DNA of 64,000 bases, taken from positions 912,001 to 976,000 of the forward strand of contig NZ_JAOWKZ010000002.1 of assembly GCF_025751495.1 (NCBI RefSeq), given 5' to 3'. Position numbers and translations under genes: made by a program. Below the pieces are notes generated by a model. It saw only the letters and a list, made by a program, of their open reading frames with translations, was not told the origin of the DNA and made no database searches. Each line of letters starts with the position of its first letter. Within the stretch, counting starts at the first letter, position 1. Origin of the DNA: Albidovulum litorale. GTDB lineage: Bacteria; Pseudomonadota; Alphaproteobacteria; Rhodobacterales; Rhodobacteraceae. Positions 8,536 through 35,818 of the stretch are shown here, piece after piece.

Positions 8536-9168
8536 ATGGACGATGACGTCAAGGTTGTAATCGAAACGCGGGAAAACGGCCCGCTGGTCATCAAGGGGCT
8601 GGATGAACTCACGGGCCCCGACGGTCAACCGCTGGAGGTGAAGCCGGTCGTCGCGCTTTGTCGTTGTGGCGGCAGCAAGACCAAGCCCTTTTGCGATGGC
8701 AGTCACAAGACCAATGGGTTTCAAAGCTCGGGCGGCACGCCGTCCGGGGTGAACCGCATCCTGCGGTACGCAGGTCAGGAAGTGACGGTCACCTACAACC
8801 CGCTCATCTGTTCCCACGCCGCCGAATGCGGCCGCATCGCGCCCGAAGTCTTCAACCCAGCGCAGAAGCCATGGGTTCAACCTGACAAGGGCAGCCGCAA
8901 TGCGGTGGAATCGGTGATTGCCCATTGCCCCTCGGGTGCGCTGGCACTGGCGCTGGGCGATGCGGTCACCCATCTCGTCGCCGACCGGGCCCGGATTGAG
9001 GTCGCCCGCAATGGCCCCTACTACGTGCGCGAGGCCGACATTGCCGAACCCCATCCTGGCGAAGGCGCGTGCCGCCGCAAATACGTGCTTTGCCGTTGCG
9101 GCAAATCGGGTATCAAACCCTATTGCGACGGCAGCCACCGCGATCAGGGCTGGAAAAGCGGCGATTAA
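8536..9168 (+). CDS. CDGSH iron-sulfur domain protein with central Fer4_19 domain
   Basis: A 210-residue protein with two CDGSH modules flanking a small ferredoxin-like domain. Module 1 is CRCGGSKTKPFCDGSH near residues 40-55. The middle has NPLICSHAAECGR plus a late HCPS typical of the Fer4_19 (divergent 4Fe-4S mono-cluster) family. Module 2 is CRCGKSGIKPYCDGSH at the C-terminus. CDGSH domains bind redox-active 2Fe-2S clusters through three Cys and one His, all present in both copies. The start at 8536 follows a GGAGGG site. It stands alone 81 bases after the transporter operon and may be transcribed separately. Role likely redox or Fe-S cluster transfer. Confidence 0.85.
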   Translation: MDDDVKVVIETRENGPLVIKGLDELTGPDGQPLEVKPVVALCRCGGSKTKPFCDGSHKTNGFQSSGGTPSGVNRILRYAGQEVTVTYNPLICSHAAECGRIAPEVFNPAQKPWVQPDKGSRNAVESVIAHCPSGALALALGDAVTHLVADRARIEVARNGPYYVREADIAEPHPGEGACRRKYVLCRCGKSGIKPYCDGSHRDQGWKSGD

Positions 9169-9308
9169 GATGTCGGGCAATACATCCTGACTGACTGGAA
9201 CAGCTTTCGGCTAGCCGGATTGACTCCGTACGCGGCTGCAAGGGCTTTTCACCGGCGGGTCCTGCGGGCATAGTCACGTCCGCGGGACATTTGATCCGGG
9301 GGACGGAA

Positions 9309-15774: not shown

Positions 15775-15874
15775 AAGACATCTCCCGATTGGTCGCTGCT
15801 AGTGTAGCGTTTCGGGCCCAGTTATCCGATCACAGTTTTCGGCGGGTGCGAATTCTTCCACCGACAAGTCATCA

Positions 15875-25932: not shown

Positions 25933-26173
25933 CTAATAGGACGTGCGACAGTTCCGCGGTCGCTTTCGGCGTTGCGAGAACTGCGAGATACGCAACCGTT
26001 CGGTTCGACCGCGTATGACTCCATGGCTTCGGCACTGAGCTGCAATCAAACGGGCGGCTGTCTGTCAATGGGTCGGAATGTGAAAGCTATAACACCTGGG
26101 TGTGAGAAAGCTGGATATCCAGCTCTGTGGGCCCAAGTTCCACCACCTATGGCCGAAGTTTTCCGGAGAGAAT

Positions 26174-26195
26174 TGGTGCGCTTAAGGGACTTTGA
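26174..26195. repeat. Candidate attR: decayed copy of tRNA-Thr 3' end
   Basis: TGGTGC-GCTTAAGGGACT here aligns with TGGTGCCGCTGAAGGGACT of the tRNA-Thr gene at 35743-35761, in the same orientation, with one deletion and one mismatch over 19 positions. Two further A residues upstream also match. This is the expected duplicate left when an element integrates at a tRNA 3' end. Confidence 0.6.
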
Positions 26196-26250
26196 TTGCA
26201 ACGCTATGGTATTGATTTAGTGTACGTAAAAAATGCGGTCAGATAAAAAG

Positions 26251-26271
26251 ACCCCCAATAATGCCCCCAAT
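26251..26271 (-). repeat. TGGGGGCAT-type repeats at left island end
   Basis: Read on the minus strand, two near-adjacent copies: ATTGGGGGCATT (26260-26271) and ATTGGGGGT (26251-26259). The same word recurs at the other island end beside the integrase remnant. I recall such GGGGGCAT repeats near tRNA-targeting P4-type integrases, where they would be arm-type binding sites; that assignment is inference. Confidence 0.5.
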
Positions 26272-26477
26272 CGTTGCGTTGGCGCGAAATTCTCCCACTA
26301 TCCGATCTGGTTTAAGATCCGGCGTATCTAGGCTCCGCGTAGACCTTTGCACTGACGCTTCCGGCCCATTTCGAACCTTCGCCGTGGGGGTCGCTATGCT
26401 GCGCTTGCAACCTGAAGTCTGACATTCGCTTCAATGCAAATGCTTGTCTCAACAGCGATAAGCAGCGTGGGCTGGTG

Positions 26478-27716
26478 TTAGTTTTCTTGGCAATTATAGT
26501 GATCCAATTCCGTCAGGAACGATGTCAAAGCAAGGATTCCCGCGCCCATGTCATCTTTGGTGGCGAATTCTTCAGGCGTGTGGCTTACACCGTCTCGGCA
26601 CCTGACAAAAAGCATTGTAATGAGGCACAGATCCGCCATGGCCGATGCGTCATGTGTAGCGCCCGACGGCAGGACAAGGCCGGACGCGCCGAATTTCTTT
26701 GCAGCGGCAGCCAGTTGGGCGGACAATGAGTTGTCGCAAGGCTGCGCTATCTGGGAATAGGTCTTCTTGGCTTTGATCGCAGTTCTTCGGTCTGTGGACA
26801 GTTTCTGCATGAAGTTGTGAAGTGCTTCGCCCGCGGCGTAGCGGGACGCGTCGTCCGGCGAACGAAACTCGGCTGTCATGGTCACTCGGCGCGGCACCGC
26901 ATTGACGACATTCGGTTCAACGGTCAGAGCGCCGACGGTTGCGCGGAGGTCGGGGGTGGTTTGTCCCAGCCGGTCAACCTCGGTAACGATGGCGGCTGCG
27001 GTGACAAGCGCGTCACGCCGTCCGGACATGGGCAGCGTGCCCGCATGGCCGGTTTCGCCTGTTATCTCAATTTGATGCCGTTCAATGCCGCAAATCGCCG
27101 TGACGACGCCAAGGGGCTGGTCGTCGCGCTCAAGAACGGGTCCCTGTTCGATGTGAGTTTCGACGAAACCCAACACGTCATCGGGATTGCGTACGAGCGT
27201 TCCCACTACTTCGGGGTTCAGCCCGAAGCCTGTCATCGCCTCCTGAAGCGTTACCCCCTGCGAATCCGTCATGGTCAGCACAGCGGCATCGAACGTCCCC
27301 GCCAGGGCGCGCGAGCCGATCAGGGCCGTTGGAAACCGCACGCCTTCTTCGTCGGCGAAGGCCAGGATCTCGACCGTGAATGGCAGGTTGATCCCGTCTG
27401 ACCGAAGCTTTGCCAAGGCCAGAAGCGGCAGCACGACGCCCATGATCCCGTCGTAGGCGCCGCCCTCGCGTACTGAGTCCTGATGTGATCCCATCAGCAG
27501 CGTTTTCGATCCGGGTGGACCTTCGAGTCGGCCAATCAGCGTTCCGGCATGGTCAAGCGCAACGGTCAAACCCACCGCCTCCATATGCATCTGAAGGAGA
27601 TCAATCGCCGCCCGGTGTTCTGGCGTGAAGGGAAGACGCGTCACACCCGGACCCGGCTCAGAGCAGGTTGCGAGTTCGTTCAGAAGGCTTTCGGCGCGTG
27701 CCCCCCAATCAGTCAA
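26478..27716 (-). CDS. Zn-dependent amidase, hydantoinase/carbamoylase family (N-carbamoyl amino acid hydrolase-like)
   Basis: A 412-residue M20-like enzyme of the HyuC/allantoate amidohydrolase family. Motifs: MGSHQDSVREGGAYDG (metal His and Asp), FADEEGVRFP (metal and base Glu), HIEQGPVLE, and PSGATHDASAMA near the end. It cleaves the carbamoyl group or a related amide from an N-substituted amino acid. The start is taken as TTG at 27716, which overlaps the upstream stop (TTGACTGA), because earlier starts lie within the DUF1028 gene and the next ATG would remove conserved sequence. The resulting length is exactly typical. It lies in the genomic island with a peptide-type importer. Confidence 0.85.
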   Translation of the reverse strand: MTDWGARAESLLNELATCSEPGPGVTRLPFTPEHRAAIDLLQMHMEAVGLTVALDHAGTLIGRLEGPPGSKTLLMGSHQDSVREGGAYDGIMGVVLPLLALAKLRSDGINLPFTVEILAFADEEGVRFPTALIGSRALAGTFDAAVLTMTDSQGVTLQEAMTGFGLNPEVVGTLVRNPDDVLGFVETHIEQGPVLERDDQPLGVVTAICGIERHQIEITGETGHAGTLPMSGRRDALVTAAAIVTEVDRLGQTTPDLRATVGALTVEPNVVNAVPRRVTMTAEFRSPDDASRYAAGEALHNFMQKLSTDRRTAIKAKKTYSQIAQPCDNSLSAQLAAAAKKFGASGLVLPSGATHDASAMADLCLITMLFVRCRDGVSHTPEEFATKDDMGAGILALTSFLTELDHYNCQEN

Positions 27717-28374
27717 GGATGCGCTCCTTGTCGGATGTGACGGGAACTTGCTGTGCCCAATCGTAATAGTCGCCGGACGTAGCCTTTTGGCAGAGCTGCT
27801 CCAGCGCACCAATCGGGTCCGTGGCATGGTAGTCGATCCTCAAGGTCAACGGAGGACGATCAGGATGGAGGACGAGTATCGCAGCCGAGAGAAGACCCCG
27901 AAAATCGCCGCCCGCGTCATGGGCGGCCTTCAAGGCATTGATCAATCGGCGCTCGAATGCATCGCCAGAACTGGTGAACGCGGTTTCCATCGCGCTCAGT
28001 ACACTGTCACTTCCCAACATGTTTCCTGATACAATTCCGCCCGGAAATGTCAGGCTGCCTTTCACATCCTCATTCTTGTCCCCGGTATAGGCGGCGACGT
28101 TGCCGCTTAGGTCCATCGCCGAAAGTTGCCGATACGCCCGCCCTCTGTCGCGGGACGTCACGTCGTTAACCGCCTGTTCGGGCGCGGAGCCGTTGCGCAT
28201 CTGCTGCAAGACTTCCTCCCCCCAGAATGTCGAGGGCGCGGCGCCCTGGCTGGCGGACATGCCTGCGGCGAGTTCTCCGCGCAAAACCCATCCACCAACA
28301 CAAAGACTGCCTGTTGCAGCGGCCCCTCCGATGGAACCTGTCTTTTGGTCGCGCGCTAGAATCGAGAACGTCAT
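27709..28374 (-). CDS. DUF1028 family protein (Ntn-hydrolase fold)
   Basis: A 221-residue DUF1028 protein. Hallmarks: MTFSILARD at the start, GGAAATGSLCVGGWV, MSASQGAAPSTFWGEEVLQ and GNMLGSDSVLSAMETAF. The family has an N-terminal-nucleophile-hydrolase-like fold, and Thr2 would become the N-terminus after Met removal. Its activity is unproven, but it is common beside peptide importers and amidases. The start at 28374 leaves the palindromic operator outside the gene; 28401 would put the start inside the palindrome. Divergent from the importer and cotranscribed with the carbamoylase. Confidence 0.85.
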   Translation of the reverse strand: MTFSILARDQKTGSIGGAAATGSLCVGGWVLRGELAAGMSASQGAAPSTFWGEEVLQQMRNGSAPEQAVNDVTSRDRGRAYRQLSAMDLSGNVAAYTGDKNEDVKGSLTFPGGIVSGNMLGSDSVLSAMETAFTSSGDAFERRLINALKAAHDAGGDFRGLLSAAILVLHPDRPPLTLRIDYHATDPIGALEQLCQKATSGDYYDWAQQVPVTSDKERILD

Positions 28375-28399
28375 ATCGCACCTTAAACTGGAGTCATCC

Positions 28400-28441
28400 A
28401 TTTATCATGATAAATTGACGATTGCAAATTATCATGATAAA
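28400..28441. promoter_or_regulatory. Tandem palindromic operators in divergent promoter
   Basis: A perfect 16-bp palindrome ATTTATCATGATAAAT (28400-28415) and a second copy with core TTATCATGATAA (28429-28440), centres 27 bases apart. They sit between the DUF1028 and binding-protein genes in a strikingly AT-rich patch. The island's own GntR regulator (33845-34609) is the best candidate to bind them. Near-integral helical-turn spacing fits cooperative binding on a divergent promoter. Confidence 0.75.
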
Positions 28442-28475
28442 TATGCGACCAGAACACCAACAGGGAGAATAAGAA

Positions 28476-30053
28476 ATGCCACTGCTTTCCTGGACCCGAA
28501 GGGGCCTCGTCGCGGCCGTTGGGGCCGCTTTCTTGATCGGCGGTCTGGGTGGGCCGGTCGTTGCACAAACCCCGCCCGGCGTCTTGATCGTCGGCCAGAT
28601 TGCAGAACCGAAATCGCTCGACCCCGCGGCCGTGACGGCCGTCAACGATTTCCGCATTCTCGTAAATGTTTACGAGGGGTTAACCCGCTACAAGTCGGGC
28701 ACACTGGAGGTGGAGCCGGCGCTGGCGACCAGTTGGGACATCAGCGAGGACGGCACCCAATACACCTTTACCCTGCGTGATGGCGTGACGTTCCACGACG
28801 GGACGCCCTTCAACGCCGAGGCAGTCAAGTTCAACTTTGACCGGATGCTGGACGAGAATCACCCCTATCACGACACGGGGCCTTTCCCGCTGTCGTTCTT
28901 CTTTGGTGCGGTTCAGTCGACCGAGGTCGTTGATGACATGACAGTGAAGTTCACGCTGAACGCGCCCTACGCACCCTTCCTGTCGAACCTTGCCTATCCC
29001 ACCGGTCTGATCGTGTCGCCTGCCGCCGTCGAGGCGCACGGCAAGGAGTTCGGCCGCAACCCGTCCGGCACCGGTCCTTTCAAGTTCGCCGAGTGGCGCT
29101 CGAACGAGGCCGTAGTCGTTGAACGGAATGACGGCTATTGGGGAGAAGCCGCTGGTACGCAAGCCGTCGTCTTCCGCCCGATCACCGACGCCAACACCCG
29201 TGTGGCCGAAATGCTGGCGGGCGGTATCGACATGATGGTTGAAGTGCCACCGACATCGCTGGGCCAGTTTTCGGGCGGTGGCTTCAGCGTTGCGGAACAG
29301 GCCGGGCCGCACGTATGGTTCCTGATCCTGAACGCCAAGGAAGGCCCGTTTGCCGACAAGCGCGTACGTCAGGCCGCAAACTATGCGATCAACAAGGAAG
29401 CGATCGTGAACGACGTGCTGGAAGGCACGGCAAGCGTGGCGGCTGGTCCGACTCCTCCCGCCTTTGCCTGGGCCTATAACGAAGCGCTCGATCCCTATCC
29501 CTACGATCCCGAAAAGGCCAAGGCGCTGATCGCTGAAGCCGGGGCTGATGGGGCAACGCTGACCTTCTATGTCACCGAGGGCGGTTCCGGTATGCTTGAT
29601 CCGGTGCCGATGGGCACTGCGATCCAGGCGGACCTTCAGGCCGTTGGCTTTGACGTGAAAATCGAAACCTACGAGTGGAACACCTTCCTGGGCGAAGTGA
29701 ACCCGGGGCTGGAGGGCAAGGCGGACATGGCTGAAATGGCCTGGATGACCAATGACCCCGACACGCTGCCCTATCTGGCGCTGCGGTCCGAGGCCTGGCC
29801 TGACAAGGGGGGCTTCAACTCGGGCTACTACGCCAACCCGAAGGTCGATGAACTTCTGGACGCCGCCCGTACGGCGACGGATCAGGATGAACGCGCACGG
29901 CTTTACCGCGAGATGCAGGAGATTGTGCAGGAAGATGCGCCCTGGGTCTTTGTCGCCAACTGGAAGCAGAACGCGGTAACCAATGACCGGGTGGAGAACT
30001 TCGGGCTTGAGCCGTCGTTCCTGCTGCACCTGCAAGGCGTGGTAAAGAACTGA
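28476..30053 (+). CDS. Peptide-type ABC transporter substrate-binding protein
   Basis: A 525-residue family 5 solute-binding protein. The signal peptide is about residues 1-31 (RRGLVAAVGAAFLIGG, ending VVAQ). The mature protein opens VLIVGQIAEPKSLDPAAV, the usual signature region for this family, followed by FTLRDGVTFHDGTPF. First gene of the island's importer operon, 35 bases downstream of the second operator. Specificity is unknown; neighbours suggest an N-acylated or carbamoylated amino acid or short peptide. Confidence 0.92.
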   Translation: MPLLSWTRRGLVAAVGAAFLIGGLGGPVVAQTPPGVLIVGQIAEPKSLDPAAVTAVNDFRILVNVYEGLTRYKSGTLEVEPALATSWDISEDGTQYTFTLRDGVTFHDGTPFNAEAVKFNFDRMLDENHPYHDTGPFPLSFFFGAVQSTEVVDDMTVKFTLNAPYAPFLSNLAYPTGLIVSPAAVEAHGKEFGRNPSGTGPFKFAEWRSNEAVVVERNDGYWGEAAGTQAVVFRPITDANTRVAEMLAGGIDMMVEVPPTSLGQFSGGGFSVAEQAGPHVWFLILNAKEGPFADKRVRQAANYAINKEAIVNDVLEGTASVAAGPTPPAFAWAYNEALDPYPYDPEKAKALIAEAGADGATLTFYVTEGGSGMLDPVPMGTAIQADLQAVGFDVKIETYEWNTFLGEVNPGLEGKADMAEMAWMTNDPDTLPYLALRSEAWPDKGGFNSGYYANPKVDELLDAARTATDQDERARLYREMQEIVQEDAPWVFVANWKQNAVTNDRVENFGLEPSFLLHLQGVVKN

Positions 30054-30062
30054 AGCTAAACG

Positions 30063-30090
30063 CTCCGGGGCCGTCCTGTCGGCCCCGGAG
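30063..30090 (+). other. Intercistronic hairpin covering the permease ribosome-binding site
   Basis: A perfect 10-bp stem (CTCCGGGGCC 30063-30072 with GGCCCCGGAG 30081-30090) and 8-base loop, ten bases after the binding-protein stop. The 3' arm contains the GGAG that serves the permease ATG at 30096, so the fold would both protect the upstream mRNA and limit permease translation. Confidence 0.65.
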
Positions 30091-30095
30091 AAACC

Positions 30096-31058
30096 ATGCG
30101 CGGGGCAATGATGGGCGGCTACATCCTGAAACGTCTGATCTCTGCGGTCCCGGTCCTTCTGGGCATCACGATCATCGTCTTTCTGATCATGTCGCTCATT
30201 CCGGGCGATCCGGCCACCGCAATTCTCGGCTCATACGCCACCCCTGAAAATGTCGAAAAGCTGAACCGTGACCTTGGCCTCGATAAGCCGATGGTCCAGC
30301 GCTATTTCATCTGGCTCGGCAACATGCTGACCGGCGATTTCGGGCGCTCCTTTTCGCTCAACCGCCCCGTTCTGGACGAGATCGTCGAGCGTTTCTCTGC
30401 AACCCTTATTCTGGCCGGCACGGCGTTTGTGTTGTGTTCGGTTCTTGGCGTGCTGGCGGGTGTGGTATCGGCCGCGCGCCAGTATGGCCTTGCAGACAAG
30501 GCAATCACATTCATCGTACTGATCGGCATCTCGGTGCCGTCCTTTTTCCTTGGCATGATGATGATCCTGCTCTTCGCGGTGAACCTGCGCTGGCTGCCCG
30601 TATCGGGGATGTACGCGATCTATGGCGGCGGGGACCTGCCCGATCTTCTCAACCACCTGATCATGCCTGCGCTCGCGTTGGCGGCGGTGGCGACGGGCGT
30701 CATTGCGCGGCTTGCACGTTCGGCGATGCTGGAGGTCCTGCGGCAGGACTATATCCGCACGGCGCGCGCCAAGGGTGTGCCGGAACGCCGCGTGATCATG
30801 GGTCACGCGCTGCGTGCGGCCATGGTGTCGATCATCCCGGTTCTCGGCATTCAGGCCGGGTTCGTCCTGTCGGGGGCGGTCTACATTGAAATCGTGTTTC
30901 AATGGCCCGGTGTGGGGCGGATGCTGGTCGAAGCAATCCTGAAGCGCGATCTCTTGCTGGTTCAGGGCGGCGTTGTCTTCGTTGCGGCCTGTTATGTCAT
31001 GTTCAATATCGCGGTGGACGTGGCGCAAAGCCTGCTTGATCCAAGGATCAAGACATGA
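30096..31058 (+). CDS. ABC transporter permease, DppB type (island copy)
   Basis: A 320-residue permease: first helix VPVLLGITIIVFLIM, then SLIPGDPATAILG, the coupling region RTARAKGVPERRVI, and the ending DVAQSLLDPRIKT. An in-frame ATG at 30111 (MGGYILKRL) is a plausible alternative start, but GGAG is best placed for 30096. It overlaps the next gene by 4 bases (ATGA). Confidence 0.92.
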   Translation: MRGAMMGGYILKRLISAVPVLLGITIIVFLIMSLIPGDPATAILGSYATPENVEKLNRDLGLDKPMVQRYFIWLGNMLTGDFGRSFSLNRPVLDEIVERFSATLILAGTAFVLCSVLGVLAGVVSAARQYGLADKAITFIVLIGISVPSFFLGMMMILLFAVNLRWLPVSGMYAIYGGGDLPDLLNHLIMPALALAAVATGVIARLARSAMLEVLRQDYIRTARAKGVPERRVIMGHALRAAMVSIIPVLGIQAGFVLSGAVYIEIVFQWPGVGRMLVEAILKRDLLLVQGGVVFVAACYVMFNIAVDVAQSLLDPRIKT

Positions 31059-32920
31059 GCACGTTTCTGAAACTCCTGTTCCGCAATCGTCTGGCCGCCA
31101 TGGGCGCGGTGGTGCTGGGGGCGATCCTGCTTCTGGTGCTCGTCACGCCGATCCTGCCCTTGCACGACCCCGACATCACCGCCACCGCCGACCGGTTCAA
31201 GCGACCGTTCACCGAAGGCCACCTTCTGGGCACAGATCATCTTGGCCGCGATCTGCTCAGCCGTTTGCTGCATGGGACGAGGCTTTCTCTTGCTATCGGT
31301 GTCGCCGCTGCGTTGATTGCCGCCACCATCGGCTCGGCCATCGGCATTGTTGCGGGGTATTTCGGCGGACGCACCGACAATATCATCATGCGCGGCGTGG
31401 ATATGCTGATGGCCTTTCCCTACATCCTGCTGGCACTGGCCATCGTTGCCGCCCTCGGCCCCGGGCTGATGAACGCCTTGATTGCCGTGGCCGCCGTCAA
31501 CGTGCCCTTCTTTGCCCGCAACATTCGCGGCATCACCGTCGGTCTTGCGGGACATGAATTCATCGACGCGGCGCGGCTGGCGGGTATGGGGCACACGCGG
31601 ATCATCCTGACCGAACTCCTGCCCAATGTTCTGCCCGTCATTGTGATCGCCATGTCGACGACGGTGGGCTGGATGATTCTGGAAACCGCCGGTCTCAGCT
31701 TCCTTGGCCTTGGCTCACAACCCCCCCAAGCCGATCTCGGCTCAATGCTGGGTGAGGCACGTTCAGCGATGATCTCGCATCCACACACCTCCATCGTGCC
31801 GGGGGTGATGATTTTCCTCATCGTCATGTCCATCAACCTGCTGGGCGACGGCGTGCGCGATGCGCTCGATCCCCGGTTGCGTTCGGGCGCCTTGTCGCGG
31901 CCGCGGGCAACCACGCTTGTGGAGCGTCAGGGCGACATCCCCGCCGCAACCGACGATCTTCTGGCCATTCAAGAGCTAGAAACCCAGTTCCACGTGGGTA
32001 ACCGCATCTACCGCGCTGTGGGGGGCGTCTCACTGGCAGTGAAGTCCGGAGAATGTCTGGGCGTGATCGGCGAAAGCGGCTCAGGCAAATCCGTCACTGC
32101 ACTTTCGGTCATGGGGCTTGTCGCCTCGCCACCCGGAGTGATCACCGGCGGCGCGGTGCGGTTCCAGGGCGAGGACCTGATCGGCGCGCCCTACGAAACC
32201 CTGCGCCGGAAGCGCGGTGACCGGGTGGCCTATATCTTCCAGGACCCGCTTTCTACCCTGCATCCCCTCTATCGCATCGGGCAGCAACTCGCCGAGGCAA
32301 TCCAGTCGCACCACAAGATCGGCTCTGCCGAGGCCCGGTCCCGCGCCATTAGGCTGCTGAAAGATGTGCGCATCCCCAATGCGGAGGCTCGGGTGGACAA
32401 CTTTCCCCACGAAATGTCGGGCGGCATGCGACAGCGAGTCGGCATCGCCATGGCGCTGGCGAATGAACCCGATGTGATCATTGCCGACGAACCTACCACC
32501 GCGCTGGATGTCACCGTGCAGGCCCAGATCCTCTCGCTCCTCGACGACCTGCGCCGTGACCGGGGGCTGGCGATCATTTTCATCACTCATGACTTCGGCG
32601 TCGTGGCGCAGCTTTGCGACCGGGTGGCGGTGATGTATGCGGGCCGGATCGTCGAGGAAGGTCCCACCAAGGCCGTACTCGACGCACCCGCGCATCCCTA
32701 CACCAAACGCCTGATCGCCTGCGTGCCGGAGTTGGGAGGCGGACGGCGCGAACTGGCAGCCATCCCCGGCCTGCCACCGGTTGTCGATGACCTGCCGCCG
32801 GGATGTGCCTTCGCTCCACGTTGCGACAAGGCACAGGACAATTGCAGGGCAGCAGAAGTCGTGCTGCTGGGGAATGAACCGCGCGCCGTCCGGTGCCTCT
32901 ATCCGGAGGAGGCCATTTGA
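31055..32920 (+). CDS. Fused DppC-type permease and DppD-type ATPase
   Basis: A 621-residue fusion. Residues about 1-280 form a complete DppC permease (LLGTDHLGRDLLSRLL, GHEFIDAARLAGMGHTRI, GDGVRDALDPRLRSG). After a linker of about 30 residues, residues about 310-621 form a DppD ATPase (GESGSGKSV, MSGGMRQR, VIIADEPTTALD, FITHDFG, and the C-terminal HPY region CAFAPRCDKAQDNC). There is no stop or frameshift at the junction. Such permease/ATPase fusions occur in several peptide importers. The fused ATPase should pair with the DppF protein encoded next. Confidence 0.93.
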   Translation: MSTFLKLLFRNRLAAMGAVVLGAILLLVLVTPILPLHDPDITATADRFKRPFTEGHLLGTDHLGRDLLSRLLHGTRLSLAIGVAAALIAATIGSAIGIVAGYFGGRTDNIIMRGVDMLMAFPYILLALAIVAALGPGLMNALIAVAAVNVPFFARNIRGITVGLAGHEFIDAARLAGMGHTRIILTELLPNVLPVIVIAMSTTVGWMILETAGLSFLGLGSQPPQADLGSMLGEARSAMISHPHTSIVPGVMIFLIVMSINLLGDGVRDALDPRLRSGALSRPRATTLVERQGDIPAATDDLLAIQELETQFHVGNRIYRAVGGVSLAVKSGECLGVIGESGSGKSVTALSVMGLVASPPGVITGGAVRFQGEDLIGAPYETLRRKRGDRVAYIFQDPLSTLHPLYRIGQQLAEAIQSHHKIGSAEARSRAIRLLKDVRIPNAEARVDNFPHEMSGGMRQRVGIAMALANEPDVIIADEPTTALDVTVQAQILSLLDDLRRDRGLAIIFITHDFGVVAQLCDRVAVMYAGRIVEEGPTKAVLDAPAHPYTKRLIACVPELGGGRRELAAIPGLPPVVDDLPPGCAFAPRCDKAQDNCRAAEVVLLGNEPRAVRCLYPEEAI

Positions 32921-33876
32921 TGCCCGCGCTAAAGGTCACCAACCTCGCCAAAACTTTCCCTATGAAACCACGGTTCTTCGGCCCTACCCCACCCGGTGTG
33001 CGTGCCGTGCGGCCGATGAGTTTCGAAGTGGCGGCGGGCGAAACGCTGGGCGTCGTCGGCGAATCCGGCTGCGGAAAGTCCACGCTGGCGCGGATGCTGG
33101 TCGGGCTGTTGGAGCCGTCGGAAGGAGCAATCCAGATCGAAGGCCGCGCGCTCGATAACGCCAATCCGGCGGAGTTCGGCAAGCTGATCCAATATGTCTT
33201 TCAGGACCCGCAAAGCTCGCTCAACCCGCGCAAGACCATTCGCCAGGTGATGGAAGCGCCGCTGAAACGCCTTCATGGCATGGCGCAGGCAGAGCGCGAC
33301 CGGCGTATCAGCGAAATCTTCGCCAGCGTGAACCTGCGCGAGGAGTTTCTCGACCGCTATCCGCATGAATTCTCCGGGGGACAAGCGCAGCGGATCGGTA
33401 TCGCCCGCGCACTGGCCGCCAACCCCAGGATCATCATTCTGGACGAACCGGTTTCCGCACTTGACGTTTCGGTGCAGGCGCAGGTTCTCAACCTGTTGGC
33501 CGTTCTGAAATCGCAATTCGGGCTGACCTATCTCTTCATCACCCATGACCTCGCGGTGGTCGAAGCGGTCAGCGACCGGATCATCGTGCTCTACTTTGGT
33601 GCCGTGGTCGAGATCGGCAAAGCAGAGAGCATCTTTGCAAACCCCCGACACCCTTATACAAAACTTCTGGCTGACAGCGCGCCGGTCGTGGGCAAGCCCC
33701 TCAAGGCACCTGAACAGAAAGGAACGGAACTGCCCGATCCGCTTAACCCTCCACCGGGCTGCGCCTTTGCTGGCCGCTGCGCGCGCGCCTCAGACCAGTG
33801 CCGTACAATCGAGCCAGACCTCAAGCCAATGGGAGACGACCAGTTTGCCGCCTGCCACCACCCGCTCCAAGACTGA
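32920..33876 (+). CDS. Peptide ABC transporter ATP-binding protein, DppF type (island copy)
   Basis: A 318-residue ATPase: Walker A GESGCGKST, Q-loop VFQDPQSSLNPRKT, signature FSGGQAQR, Walker B IIILDEPVSALDV, C-terminal HPY cysteines (CAFAGRCARASDQC). The TGATG overlap with the fusion gene and an upstream GGAGGAGG fix the start at 32920. It overlaps the regulator gene by about 32 bases. Confidence 0.93.
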   Translation: MPALKVTNLAKTFPMKPRFFGPTPPGVRAVRPMSFEVAAGETLGVVGESGCGKSTLARMLVGLLEPSEGAIQIEGRALDNANPAEFGKLIQYVFQDPQSSLNPRKTIRQVMEAPLKRLHGMAQAERDRRISEIFASVNLREEFLDRYPHEFSGGQAQRIGIARALAANPRIIILDEPVSALDVSVQAQVLNLLAVLKSQFGLTYLFITHDLAVVEAVSDRIIVLYFGAVVEIGKAESIFANPRHPYTKLLADSAPVVGKPLKAPEQKGTELPDPLNPPPGCAFAGRCARASDQCRTIEPDLKPMGDDQFAACHHPLQD

Positions 33877-34609
33877 ACCCAAGCTCAGCCGCCCGGTTCA
33901 GGTCGCCGAAGCGATTAAGAACTGGGTCGTCGAACAGGGTTTGCAGGCCGGGGACCGTTTGCCCGGGGAAGCCGAACTGATTGAGCGCTTTGGCATGGCC
34001 AAGGGCACCATCCGCGAGGCCATGCGTGTGCTCGAAGCGCAGGGGCTGATCAAGACCCGCACCGGCCCAGGCGGCGGCAGCTTTGTGCACGAAGTCAGCC
34101 GACAGCGCGCCAAGGCCTTGCTGGGCAACTACTTCTATTTCAAGAATTTGACCATCGGAGACATCTACCAGCTGCGCCTGACGCTGGAGCCTGAACTGGC
34201 TGCGACGCTGGCGGGAAAATTGTCCGAAGAAGTTCTGGAACAGCTTGAGGCGAACATTGCCGCGTATTCCGAACCCGCTAAGACCCTGAATGAAGAACGC
34301 GAACAGCACGTTGCCTCACTGCGGTTCCACGCAATCTTGGCCGCACAGGCGAAGAACCCTCTGCTTGGATTTGTGATTGATTTCATGGTGAACCTGCTGA
34401 CCGATCTGACGGTCTATCGACGCCTTTATTCTCCCCCAAATGTCGAGCTTTGGAAGCAAGGCCGCGATCACCAACGCCAGCTCATTACCGCTCTTCGCGA
34501 CGGCGAAGCGGAAACTGCACGCTCGATCATGTTCGATCACATGGAAACGGCTTGGAAACTGATGCGCCGACAAGAGGTCGAAATGGAGAGTCGATTCATT
34601 TCAGAATGA
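33845..34609 (+). CDS. GntR/FadR family transcriptional regulator
   Basis: A 254-residue FadR-type regulator. Winged helix about residues 17-85 (DRLPGEAELIERFGMAKGTI, REAMRVLEAQGLIKTR), then an FCD ligand-binding domain (LRLTLEPELAATLAGKL, RFHAILAAQAKNPLLGF). The TTG at 33845 is the best-placed start after GGGAG in the end of dppF; no ATG fits. Last gene of the importer operon, it probably autoregulates through the palindromes at 28400-28441. Confidence 0.82.
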   Translation: MPPATTRSKTEPKLSRPVQVAEAIKNWVVEQGLQAGDRLPGEAELIERFGMAKGTIREAMRVLEAQGLIKTRTGPGGGSFVHEVSRQRAKALLGNYFYFKNLTIGDIYQLRLTLEPELAATLAGKLSEEVLEQLEANIAAYSEPAKTLNEEREQHVASLRFHAILAAQAKNPLLGFVIDFMVNLLTDLTVYRRLYSPPNVELWKQGRDHQRQLITALRDGEAETARSIMFDHMETAWKLMRRQEVEMESRFISE

Positions 34610-34889
34610 GACCCATTTTCGACCTCGGAGCAAACGCGGCATTTAGTGATGAAATGCGCTGTCAACGTTGGGTTGTCATTGTGGGAGGCCATAGCGGATC
34701 GGAGGATCCGACATGGAACTAACCCCAAATCTTTCAGGTATCCGCGCCCTACGCCCAGCATGGAACAAGGGCCGCGTTCGGCCCTTTGCCGACATCCAGC
34801 GGCTTGCAGCGATGCTGCGGTCGCAGCCCGCGTTGCTGCCGTTCTGGTTCGACGCAGAAAGTCGGAGTCAGATTGTTCGGAGATGGATC
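34610..34889. other. Region without a convincing gene inside the island
   Basis: About 280 bases between the GntR regulator and the ParE-like remnant. Short open frames exist on both strands, including a 91-codon one at 34713-34988, but none shows family features and the latter overlaps the ParE remnant antisense. Probably scar sequence from loss of the island's integration genes. Confidence 0.5.
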
Positions 34890-35126
34890 TCAGAGGCGCC
34901 GCTCGACATCCATGCTCTGATGAAGGATCCGCACGACGACAAGATTGGCTTCGGTCCTGCGGAAGAAGATGACATGGCGCCCGGATAGGCATTTCTGCAT
35001 TCCCTCCGCAATCGACACGGGCCTCCCCGTCCGGTCGCCGCGCGCGAGTTGGTCGACCGCGTTGATCAGGTCGGTGGTGTAGGCGCGTTTGATGCGTTCG
35101 TTTTCTTCATTCACCTTACGGGGCAT
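34890..35126 (-). pseudogene. Chimeric remnant: integrase N-terminus fused to ParE toxin C-terminus
   Basis: A 78-codon open frame with two unrelated halves. The first 15 or so residues, MPRKVNEENERIKRAY, match the usual start of tyrosine integrases that follow small HTH genes next to tRNAs. The rest resembles the second half of a ParE-type toxin: DLINAVDQLARGDRTGRP, then GRHVIFFRR and the classic ending VRILHQSMDVERRL. A strong AAAGGAG site precedes the ATG. The likely event is one deletion removing most of the integrase, any parD, and the first third of parE. The toxin part lacks its N-terminal helices, so activity is doubtful. Confidence 0.6.
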
Positions 35127-35174
35127 GATATCTCCTTTCGAAGTGACAGCTTGAACAGAGGTTCGAGGTATCCA

Positions 35175-35588
35175 TTAGGCTGCCTCGTCCTTGTTGCCGC
35201 TGACCTCGAAGAACCTTTCCAGCTCGCCGATCTGCGCCGCTCCGACGACGCGCGAAGCGGACCCCTCGCAGATCGCGCAGAAGCCGGTGATGCGGACCGG
35301 TTTGCCCGGAAGCTGTTCCAACTGCACCATATTCTCGAAGAACTTGCGCGGTGCCTTGCAGGACAGGCAGTAGACTTCATCAGGGTGCAAAGGACGCTTC
35401 TTCGCCTGCCTACGCTCGGTCAGAAATTCTTTGGCTTCGCTACCCATGATCAAGGTCGGTCGCTGCGTGTTGAGCGCTGGCAGGCCCTGCCTGATCCAAC
35501 CGCGCACCGCACCGGTCACACCCAGCGTGCGGGCAAGCTCCGGGACGGTGTAGGTCTGAGCCGACCGCATGGGCATGGTTGGGGGCAT
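35175..35588 (-). CDS. HTH protein with zinc-ribbon-like cysteines (island integration module)
   Basis: A 137-residue protein. The N-terminal third is a MerR/Xis-like helix-turn-helix (YTVPELARTLGVTGAVRGWI). The middle has two CxxC pairs, YCLSCK and FCAICE, about 35 residues apart, suggesting a zinc ribbon. It lies 48 bases upstream of the integrase remnant and faces away from tRNA-Thr, the usual order in tRNA-anchored elements. It may be an excisionase or integration accessory factor, though no such role is shown. ATG at 35588 is used; 35576 and 35570 are alternatives. Confidence 0.65.
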   Translation of the reverse strand: MPPTMPMRSAQTYTVPELARTLGVTGAVRGWIRQGLPALNTQRPTLIMGSEAKEFLTERRQAKKRPLHPDEVYCLSCKAPRKFFENMVQLEQLPGKPVRITGFCAICEGSASRVVGAAQIGELERFFEVSGNKDEAA

Positions 35589-35641
35589 TCCATTTCAGGC
35601 TCATCTCGATGCCCCCAGAAAACGCCCCCAAAGTGGGGGCA
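35579..35641. repeat. Cluster of TGGGGGC(A/G)T repeats at right island end
   Basis: Four copies within 63 bases in both orientations: TTGGGGGCAT at 35579, inverted copies at 35610-35617 and 35622-35630, and TGGGGGCAT at 35634. The last two form a 7-bp hairpin. The same word occurs at the left island end (26251-26271). Likely integrase or accessory-protein binding sites beside the tRNA attachment site. Confidence 0.5.
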
Positions 35642-35742
35642 TTTCACCAGACTTCTATGGACTTCATGGGGCAGCGTGATCATCTGAGATCCTAAAATAC
35701 ACGGCATTTCAGGATGTCATCGGACTTGTCTGTATGGGAAAG

Positions 35743-35818
35743 TGGTGCCGCTGAAGGGACTCGAACCCCCGACCCCATCATTACGAATGACGTGCTCTAC
35801 CAGCTGAGCTACAGCGGC
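35743..35818 (-). tRNA. tRNA-Thr (anticodon CGT), site of island insertion
   Basis: Complete cloverleaf on the minus strand with encoded CCA. Acceptor GCCGCTG pairs with CAGCGGC; D arm TAGCTCAGCTGG; anticodon loop TTCGTAA presents CGT; T arm GGGTTCGAGTCC. 76 nt. The 3' end points at the island and is partly duplicated at 26174-26195. Confidence 0.95.

Follow-up and report, generated by a model that had tools for sequence, protein, structure and literature searches.

A probable decayed P4-type island at a tRNA-Thr(CGT) gene of Albidovulum litorale

Does a short near-copy of a tRNA 3′ end, lying 9.55 kb from the tRNA gene itself, mark the far end of an integrated element, and if so, of which kind? 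The question is raised by a 9.6-kb locus of Albidovulum litorale between an intact tRNA-Thr(CGT) gene and position 26174 of a 64,000-nucleotide stretch of DNA (the window; assembly GCF_025751495.1, contig NZ_JAOWKZ010000002.1, positions 912,001 to 976,000), in which an earlier note had proposed a decayed genomic island. The proposal holds, and its far end had been placed correctly, as judged from a homologous far end in a related genome, the repeats of the attachment arms and a shortened core common to the relatives. The locus is very probably a decayed P4-type island inserted at the tRNA-Thr(CGT) gene, with a tRNA mimic left at the far end. The comparison covered 21 other genomes of the genus and 394 genomes of the family. 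Here G000 is the window's own genome and G001, inferred to be Defluviimonas aestuarii JCM 18630, has a flanking protein that is 94% identical; features of the window are collected in Table 1.

The two ends of the locus

As the earlier note had described, positions 26174-26191 align with the 3′ end of the tRNA-Thr gene in the same orientation, with one gap and one mismatch. By similarity alone the near-copy is only suggestive and appears modestly beyond chance. Its score of 14.0 was equalled by 3 of 200 dinucleotide Markov sequences (10 kb each, one strand), while the best tRNA-end scores in the rest of the window were 12.5 on the same strand and 13.0 on the other. On a like statistic, 49 loci of other genomes were scored and 2 reached at least 14 downstream of a tRNA-Thr-like gene; one of these (L231, with a 16-base exact match) could be a genuine island end. 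Such a test of chance expectation does not suffice on its own, and it is the comparison with other genomes that decides.

The segment 26163-26380 was matched once among the other genus genomes, in contig C29 of G001, with 92% identity over 218 bp. The alignment starts 11 bases outside the core and the sequences diverge beyond; the G001 copy is located about 41 kb into the contig, in different surroundings and with no tRNA within the 20 kb read. Its core has the same one-base gap as that of the window. The far arms of the window, G001, G060 and G376 are mutually alignable. Because G001 has a second copy of the segment within the core, with the two sequences parting at the core, and because the pattern of arms and mimic is rare, the comparison makes it nearly certain that position 26174 is the far end of an island. 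The composition of the DNA changes along the locus: the G+C fraction falls to 0.551 between 26 and 27 kb and to 0.567-0.588 between 34 and 36 kb, whereas on the left it is mostly 0.60-0.65 and directly on the right 0.65-0.66.

The architecture of the attachment sites is shared within the family, and arm-type repeats are present inside both ends of the window locus, arranged as in the intact members. A core that is one base short was found in 3 of the 394 family genomes (the window's own, G060 and G112), all three with TGGGGG at -78/-66 or -79/-67, while a control core with the gap elsewhere was found in four genomes, none of them with the repeats. When the length of the core was left free, the TGGGGG pair with the core was present in six genomes (G331, G129, G060, G376, G112 and, once, G000), of which only G331 and G129 are new finds, the pattern having been designed after the window, G001, G060, G376 and G112 had been seen; read backwards, the same pattern was found in none of the 394. 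G129 has no tRNA on its short contig. The near arm of the window did not align with the arm of G331 or with the tRNA locus of G001, the latter being occupied by another element.

The length of the core is itself informative. The far core measures 18 bases in the window, G001, G060, G376, G112 and G331 and 17 in G129, compared to 19 in the intact tRNA, so that all seven are short, six by one base and one by two, and none has the intact length. The shortening sits within the GG that precedes the final C of the acceptor stem. A shortened tRNA fragment is a known trait of such islands according to the Islander paper (PMC4383910), and the position of the shortening in the window fits this known kind of gap. 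Decay was considered as the cause of the one-base gap and rejected, given that all seven far cores are short and that the trait is known from the same source. The tRNA is intact in these loci, and strand exchange would therefore most likely have occurred downstream of the shortened position. Like the tyrosine-integrase islands treated in the Islander paper, the locus has a tRNA at one end and a displaced 3′ fragment in direct orientation at the other; the filter of the Islander catalogue, as stated there, requires an integrase gene, whereas in the window this gene has been deleted.

Intact relatives and the lost integrase

The kind of element to which the ends belonged can be approached through relatives of the helix-turn-helix (HTH) gene near the tRNA, which occur in 15 of 101 genomes and in 31 of the 394, both counts including the window's own. 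Five of these loci were read at length, and three of them lie by a tRNA-Thr gene, in G060 (CGT), G376 (TGT) and G292 (TGT). The order in G060 is tRNA, C5/G5 arm, P4-type integrase, a ~300-codon gene, the HTH gene, a second tyrosine recombinase, the load and the far core; the arrangement in G376 is similar, although of the second recombinase no more than the start was seen. The integrases of G060, G376 and G112, the last of which also has a tRNA-Thr(CGT), adjoin the tRNA and contain the Pfam domains Arm-DNA-bind_3, Phage_int_M and Phage_integrase. The distance from the tRNA to the far core is 9.9, 9.2 and 9.0 kb in G060, G376 and G112, respectively, and the window resembles these three P4-type islands in its near arm, far arm, shortened core and spacing. 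The HTH gene and the second recombinase are common to G060 and the window, where the recombinase is a remnant, and to G376 as far as the recombinase start. In contrast, the three islands keep a P4-type integrase, which the window does not, and their load differs from that of the window, consisting in G376 of restriction-modification-like genes as judged by eye. In G112 (L258, L260; after L258 17347) the far core is followed by a near-arm-like sequence, which resembles a tandem array whose second element has been lost.

No P4-type integrase gene lies beside the tRNA in the window, where only its start aligns. From this start to the HTH frame there are two codons in the window as opposed to about 2.5 kb in G060, and the deletion join has replaced the N-terminus of the HTH protein. 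The locus is therefore classed as a remnant derived from a P4-type tRNA island and not as a functional member, as the integrase has been deleted and nothing but its start aligns. The lost tRNA-targeting integrase was most likely of the P4 type. The HTH gene listed in the earlier note is present, and its name comes from the relatives, of which that in G060 matches HTH_17 of Pfam; the window protein itself had no Pfam match, the gene had no match in plasmids at the DNA level or in phages at the protein level, and none of the 196 pattern matches in a search for its locus was confirmed.

In the earlier note the integrase is called gone; the piece that was taken there for its remnant is the 14-codon start of the second recombinase. 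Its assignment as the integrase of the tRNA site is rejected, given that in the relatives the corresponding gene is the second recombinase following the HTH gene and the P4-type integrase lies beside the tRNA. A strict motif, which misses the variant in G060, places a recombinase of the NEENERIKR type after the HTH gene in 5 of 18 loci of relatives, and the same order is seen in G060 and G292; in G060 this recombinase matches Phage_integrase with 26.2 bits, just below the cut-off of 27.1, and the domain is likewise present in G292.

The second recombinase adjoins a foreign 307-bp fragment of a ParE-type toxin gene, and across 34890-35126 the 14 codons are in frame with the C-terminal part of ParE, resulting in an open frame of 78 codons. 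Copies of the fragment are located at L131 3910-4216, L132 316-621 and 10187-10493, and L133 3248-3553, besides 34779-35085 in the window. The left border is about equal in all copies and the right border is equal in the window and one G001 copy, and in both the window and contig C8 of G000 the fragment lies near a PAWNKGR-type recombinase or its N-terminus. Recombinases of this type may have moved or trimmed the fragment as a unit.

Taken together, the history of the locus is very probably as follows. A P4-type integrative island would have inserted at the 3′ end of the tRNA-Thr(CGT) gene, with an attP holding a short tRNA 3′-end mimic that lacked one acceptor-stem base; strand exchange downstream of the missing base would have left the tRNA intact and placed the short mimic at the far end. 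A later deletion, from the integrase start to the HTH start, would have removed the P4-type integrase and the next gene, the second recombinase would have been cut to 14 codons, and pieces of ParE and of another recombinase would have arrived next to it. A GntR-regulated operon for an importer, an amidase and a DUF1028 protein now fills the slot that extends from the second recombinase to the far arm, and the locus is presumably immobile at present. Of this history, the two ends, the join left by the deletion and the truncations are demonstrated, whereas the type of the lost integrase, the point of strand exchange, the sequence of events and the present immobility are deduced.

Table 1 Features of the 9.6-kb locus, in window coordinates, with strand and basis of assignment.
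Feature	Position	Strand	Basis
Far attachment core (attR), mimic of the tRNA 3′ end, shorter than the tRNA by one base	26174..26191	-	alignment, comparison
Far arm (P arm) with one CCCCCA repeat at 26252-26257 and another at 26264-26269	26192..26380	-	92% identical to G001 contig C29
M20 hydantoinase/carbamoylase-family amidase	26478..27827	-	TIGR01879, 346.7 bits against a cut-off of 204
DUF1028 protein	27709..28401	-	domain search
Family 5 solute-binding protein	28476..30053	+	domain search
Dpp/Opp-type importer permease	30096..31058	+	domain search
Dpp/Opp-type importer permease fused to ATPase	31055..32920	+	domain search
Dpp/Opp-type ABC importer ATPase	32893..33876	+	domain search
GntR/FCD regulator (longest frame; GntR domain from ~33900)	33545..34609	+	domain search
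Short tyrosine recombinase (PAWNKGR type), first 22 codons, truncated	34713..34778	+	found whole in G001
Foreign 307-bp fragment with C-terminal part of ParE-type toxin gene	34779..35085	-	copies in G000 C8, G001 (two), G012
Second tyrosine recombinase (NEENERIKR type), first 14 codons	35086..35126	-	motif and relatives
HTH gene, N-terminus replaced by deletion join	35175..35588	-	named from relatives (HTH_17 in G060)
Probable first two codons of lost P4-type integrase, joined to HTH frame at 35570	35571..35576	-	inference from alignment with L248
Near arm (P′ arm), four C5/G5 repeats between 35580 and 35641	35580..35742	-	aligns with G060, G376, G292, G007, G112 (first repeat degraded)
Near attachment core (attL), tRNA 3′ end	35743..35761	-	tRNA match and core-length comparison
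tRNA-Thr(CGT), intact integration target	35743..35818	-	ARAGORN

The catabolic operon, the flanks and alternative readings

Several observations weigh against a decayed island at this place. The bare match is weak, given the shuffles and the scored loci that reach it, and the mismatch of the window core to the tRNA is not found in the G001 copy. There is no integrase gene left. Of the five HTH loci, that of G020 lies by a tRNA-Ser and that of G022 has no tRNA in the stretch, and no convincing far core was found in G292. G331 keeps the far end with a different near arm, and the ends of one locus may thus differ in origin. The DNA just outside the far core (25933-26162) has no match in the 21 other genus genomes and is no closer to native tRNA-Thr trailers than expected by chance, 22 of 200 random pieces being equal. 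Finally, the adjacency of 25932 and 35820 predicted in the earlier note was not found in any relative examined, nor was an empty site.

The flanks themselves are variable. The left-flank glycosyltransferase gene and the right-flank hemY-like gene (below its NCBIfam cut-off) are on different contigs in all 11 genus relatives with a glycosyltransferase match of at least 58%, a count from which G009 was left out as having only a 48% paralogue. None of seven stretches (1-18 kb) after the glycosyltransferase gene contained a tRNA-Thr, and the DNA there is common only to G015 and G021, whereas the hemY-like gene and tRNA-Thr occur together in many relatives. As the flanks are on different contigs, no tRNA-Thr follows the glycosyltransferase gene and the downstream DNA is rarely shared, the left flank is peculiar to the window genome among those compared, and none of the relatives displays the state that preceded the arrival of the island. 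No two of 13 loci compared share the DNA on the 3′ side of the tRNA past about 100 bases (G004 being without a tRNA hit). Farther left, the window (9168-9239, 13482, 15835-15873) is a mosaic relative to G001, where neighboring blocks are far apart or on another contig.

The operon contains everything the earlier note had listed: the importer (28476-33876), the N-carbamoyl hydrolase-like enzyme, the DUF1028 protein and the GntR gene. The permease-ATPase fusion forms a single frame of 621 codons, with a 606-codon frame at the same place in G005. The alternative that survives best accepts the island ends as real and takes the operon for a separate module, either independently mobile or native to the chromosome, for which the dead island was a later destination, a possibility given slightly less than even weight. 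The block 26501-34610 is contiguous in G005 with 84% DNA identity, on an 18-kb contig that contains no tRNA according to ARAGORN and no integrase among its frames as judged by eye. Less similar versions of the block, most of them lacking the amidase, are present in eight further genomes (G012, G019, G009, G020, G011, G014, G046 and G061); among eight genomes read, its surroundings are clearly common only to G011 and G019, and the operon appears to move or rearrange by itself. Because relatives have the block at other places that lack island ends, it may have moved in later instead of being the original load of the island. The identity to G005 is also close to that of the glycosyltransferase block (~85%), and the pieces of foreign recombinase and ParE separate the operon from the HTH gene. 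Against a later arrival, the operon sits in the variable-load slot of the intact relatives, bounded by the second recombinase on one side and the far arm on the other, and in G001, whose flanking protein is the closest, the sole match was the 307-bp repeat, so that absence of the operon is likely there, with 2 of 181 candidates scored. The cargo search scored only two first-look candidates per genome, and by itself it leaves absence of the cargo unproven anywhere.

The near arm and the far end could also derive from two family members that used the same tRNA and were joined by deletion, as might be suggested by the far end of G331 with its other near arm, by the tandem-like sequence beyond the far core in G112 and by the several elements for which this tRNA gene has served as a target in the genus; such a composite is nevertheless unlikely, since the 9.55 kb spacing equals that of single intact elements (9.0-9.9 kb). 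A chance match with no island end at 26174, for which the shuffles and the two other loci would speak, is rejected as extremely improbable in view of the homologous far end in G001, the fixed arm spacing, the shared shortening and the arms-plus-core pattern found in six genomes as opposed to none when read backwards.

Elements at tRNA-Thr genes and the island family

Besides the decayed P4-type island, other elements have used the same tRNA-Thr gene, as half of a tRNA-Thr lies near a full one in G001 (L158, 11532-11579 and 11667-11742) and G014 (L162, 11767-11814 and 13815-13890). Downstream of the named loci, a full or near-full tRNA match on the same strand is present in 53 of 80, and a crude motif scan of these 53 gave three with an adjoining P4-type integrase and two with the arm motif. 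A different mode of insertion is seen in G012 (L069, 981-1021, 2324-2399 and 15100-15146) and G016 (L071, 1312-1352, 10891-10966 and 12379-12427), where elements of 14 and 11 kb, respectively, interrupt the host tRNA-Thr(CGT) within its anticodon arm. These elements bring their own tRNA-Thr(CGT), 78-81% identical, with a shared core of about 12-14 bases; that of G012 has phage-like genes as judged by eye, and G011 (L077) has a tRNA-Thr 5′ half with such an element-type tRNA. The splitting resembles the tRNA-dependent lysogeny described for actinobacteriophages (PMC10865867) and mentioned for S. meliloti (PMC11476347).

The shared features suggest, with moderate confidence, a coherent family of P4-type islands of ~9-10 kb that occupy tRNA-Thr genes in the Rhodobacterales and share one fixed attachment code. 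In the proposed code, the tRNA mimic would lack one base (two in one case), TGGGGG would occur twice inside the far end, at about 66 and 78 bases, and the near end would have four C5/G5 repeats. If true, the code would be specific enough to find orphan ends where the integrase has been lost, as in G000 and G001, and it would make dead islands countable and allow the replacement of their load to be asked about. A decayed tRNA island is an ordinary kind of thing, in this case unusually well documented, and it shows how an island end can be proven by arm repeats and a shared shortening even if the length of the tRNA fragment does not suffice for significance. The slot of the island has outlasted its own integrase, and it now holds a catabolic operon that is found elsewhere in the genus.

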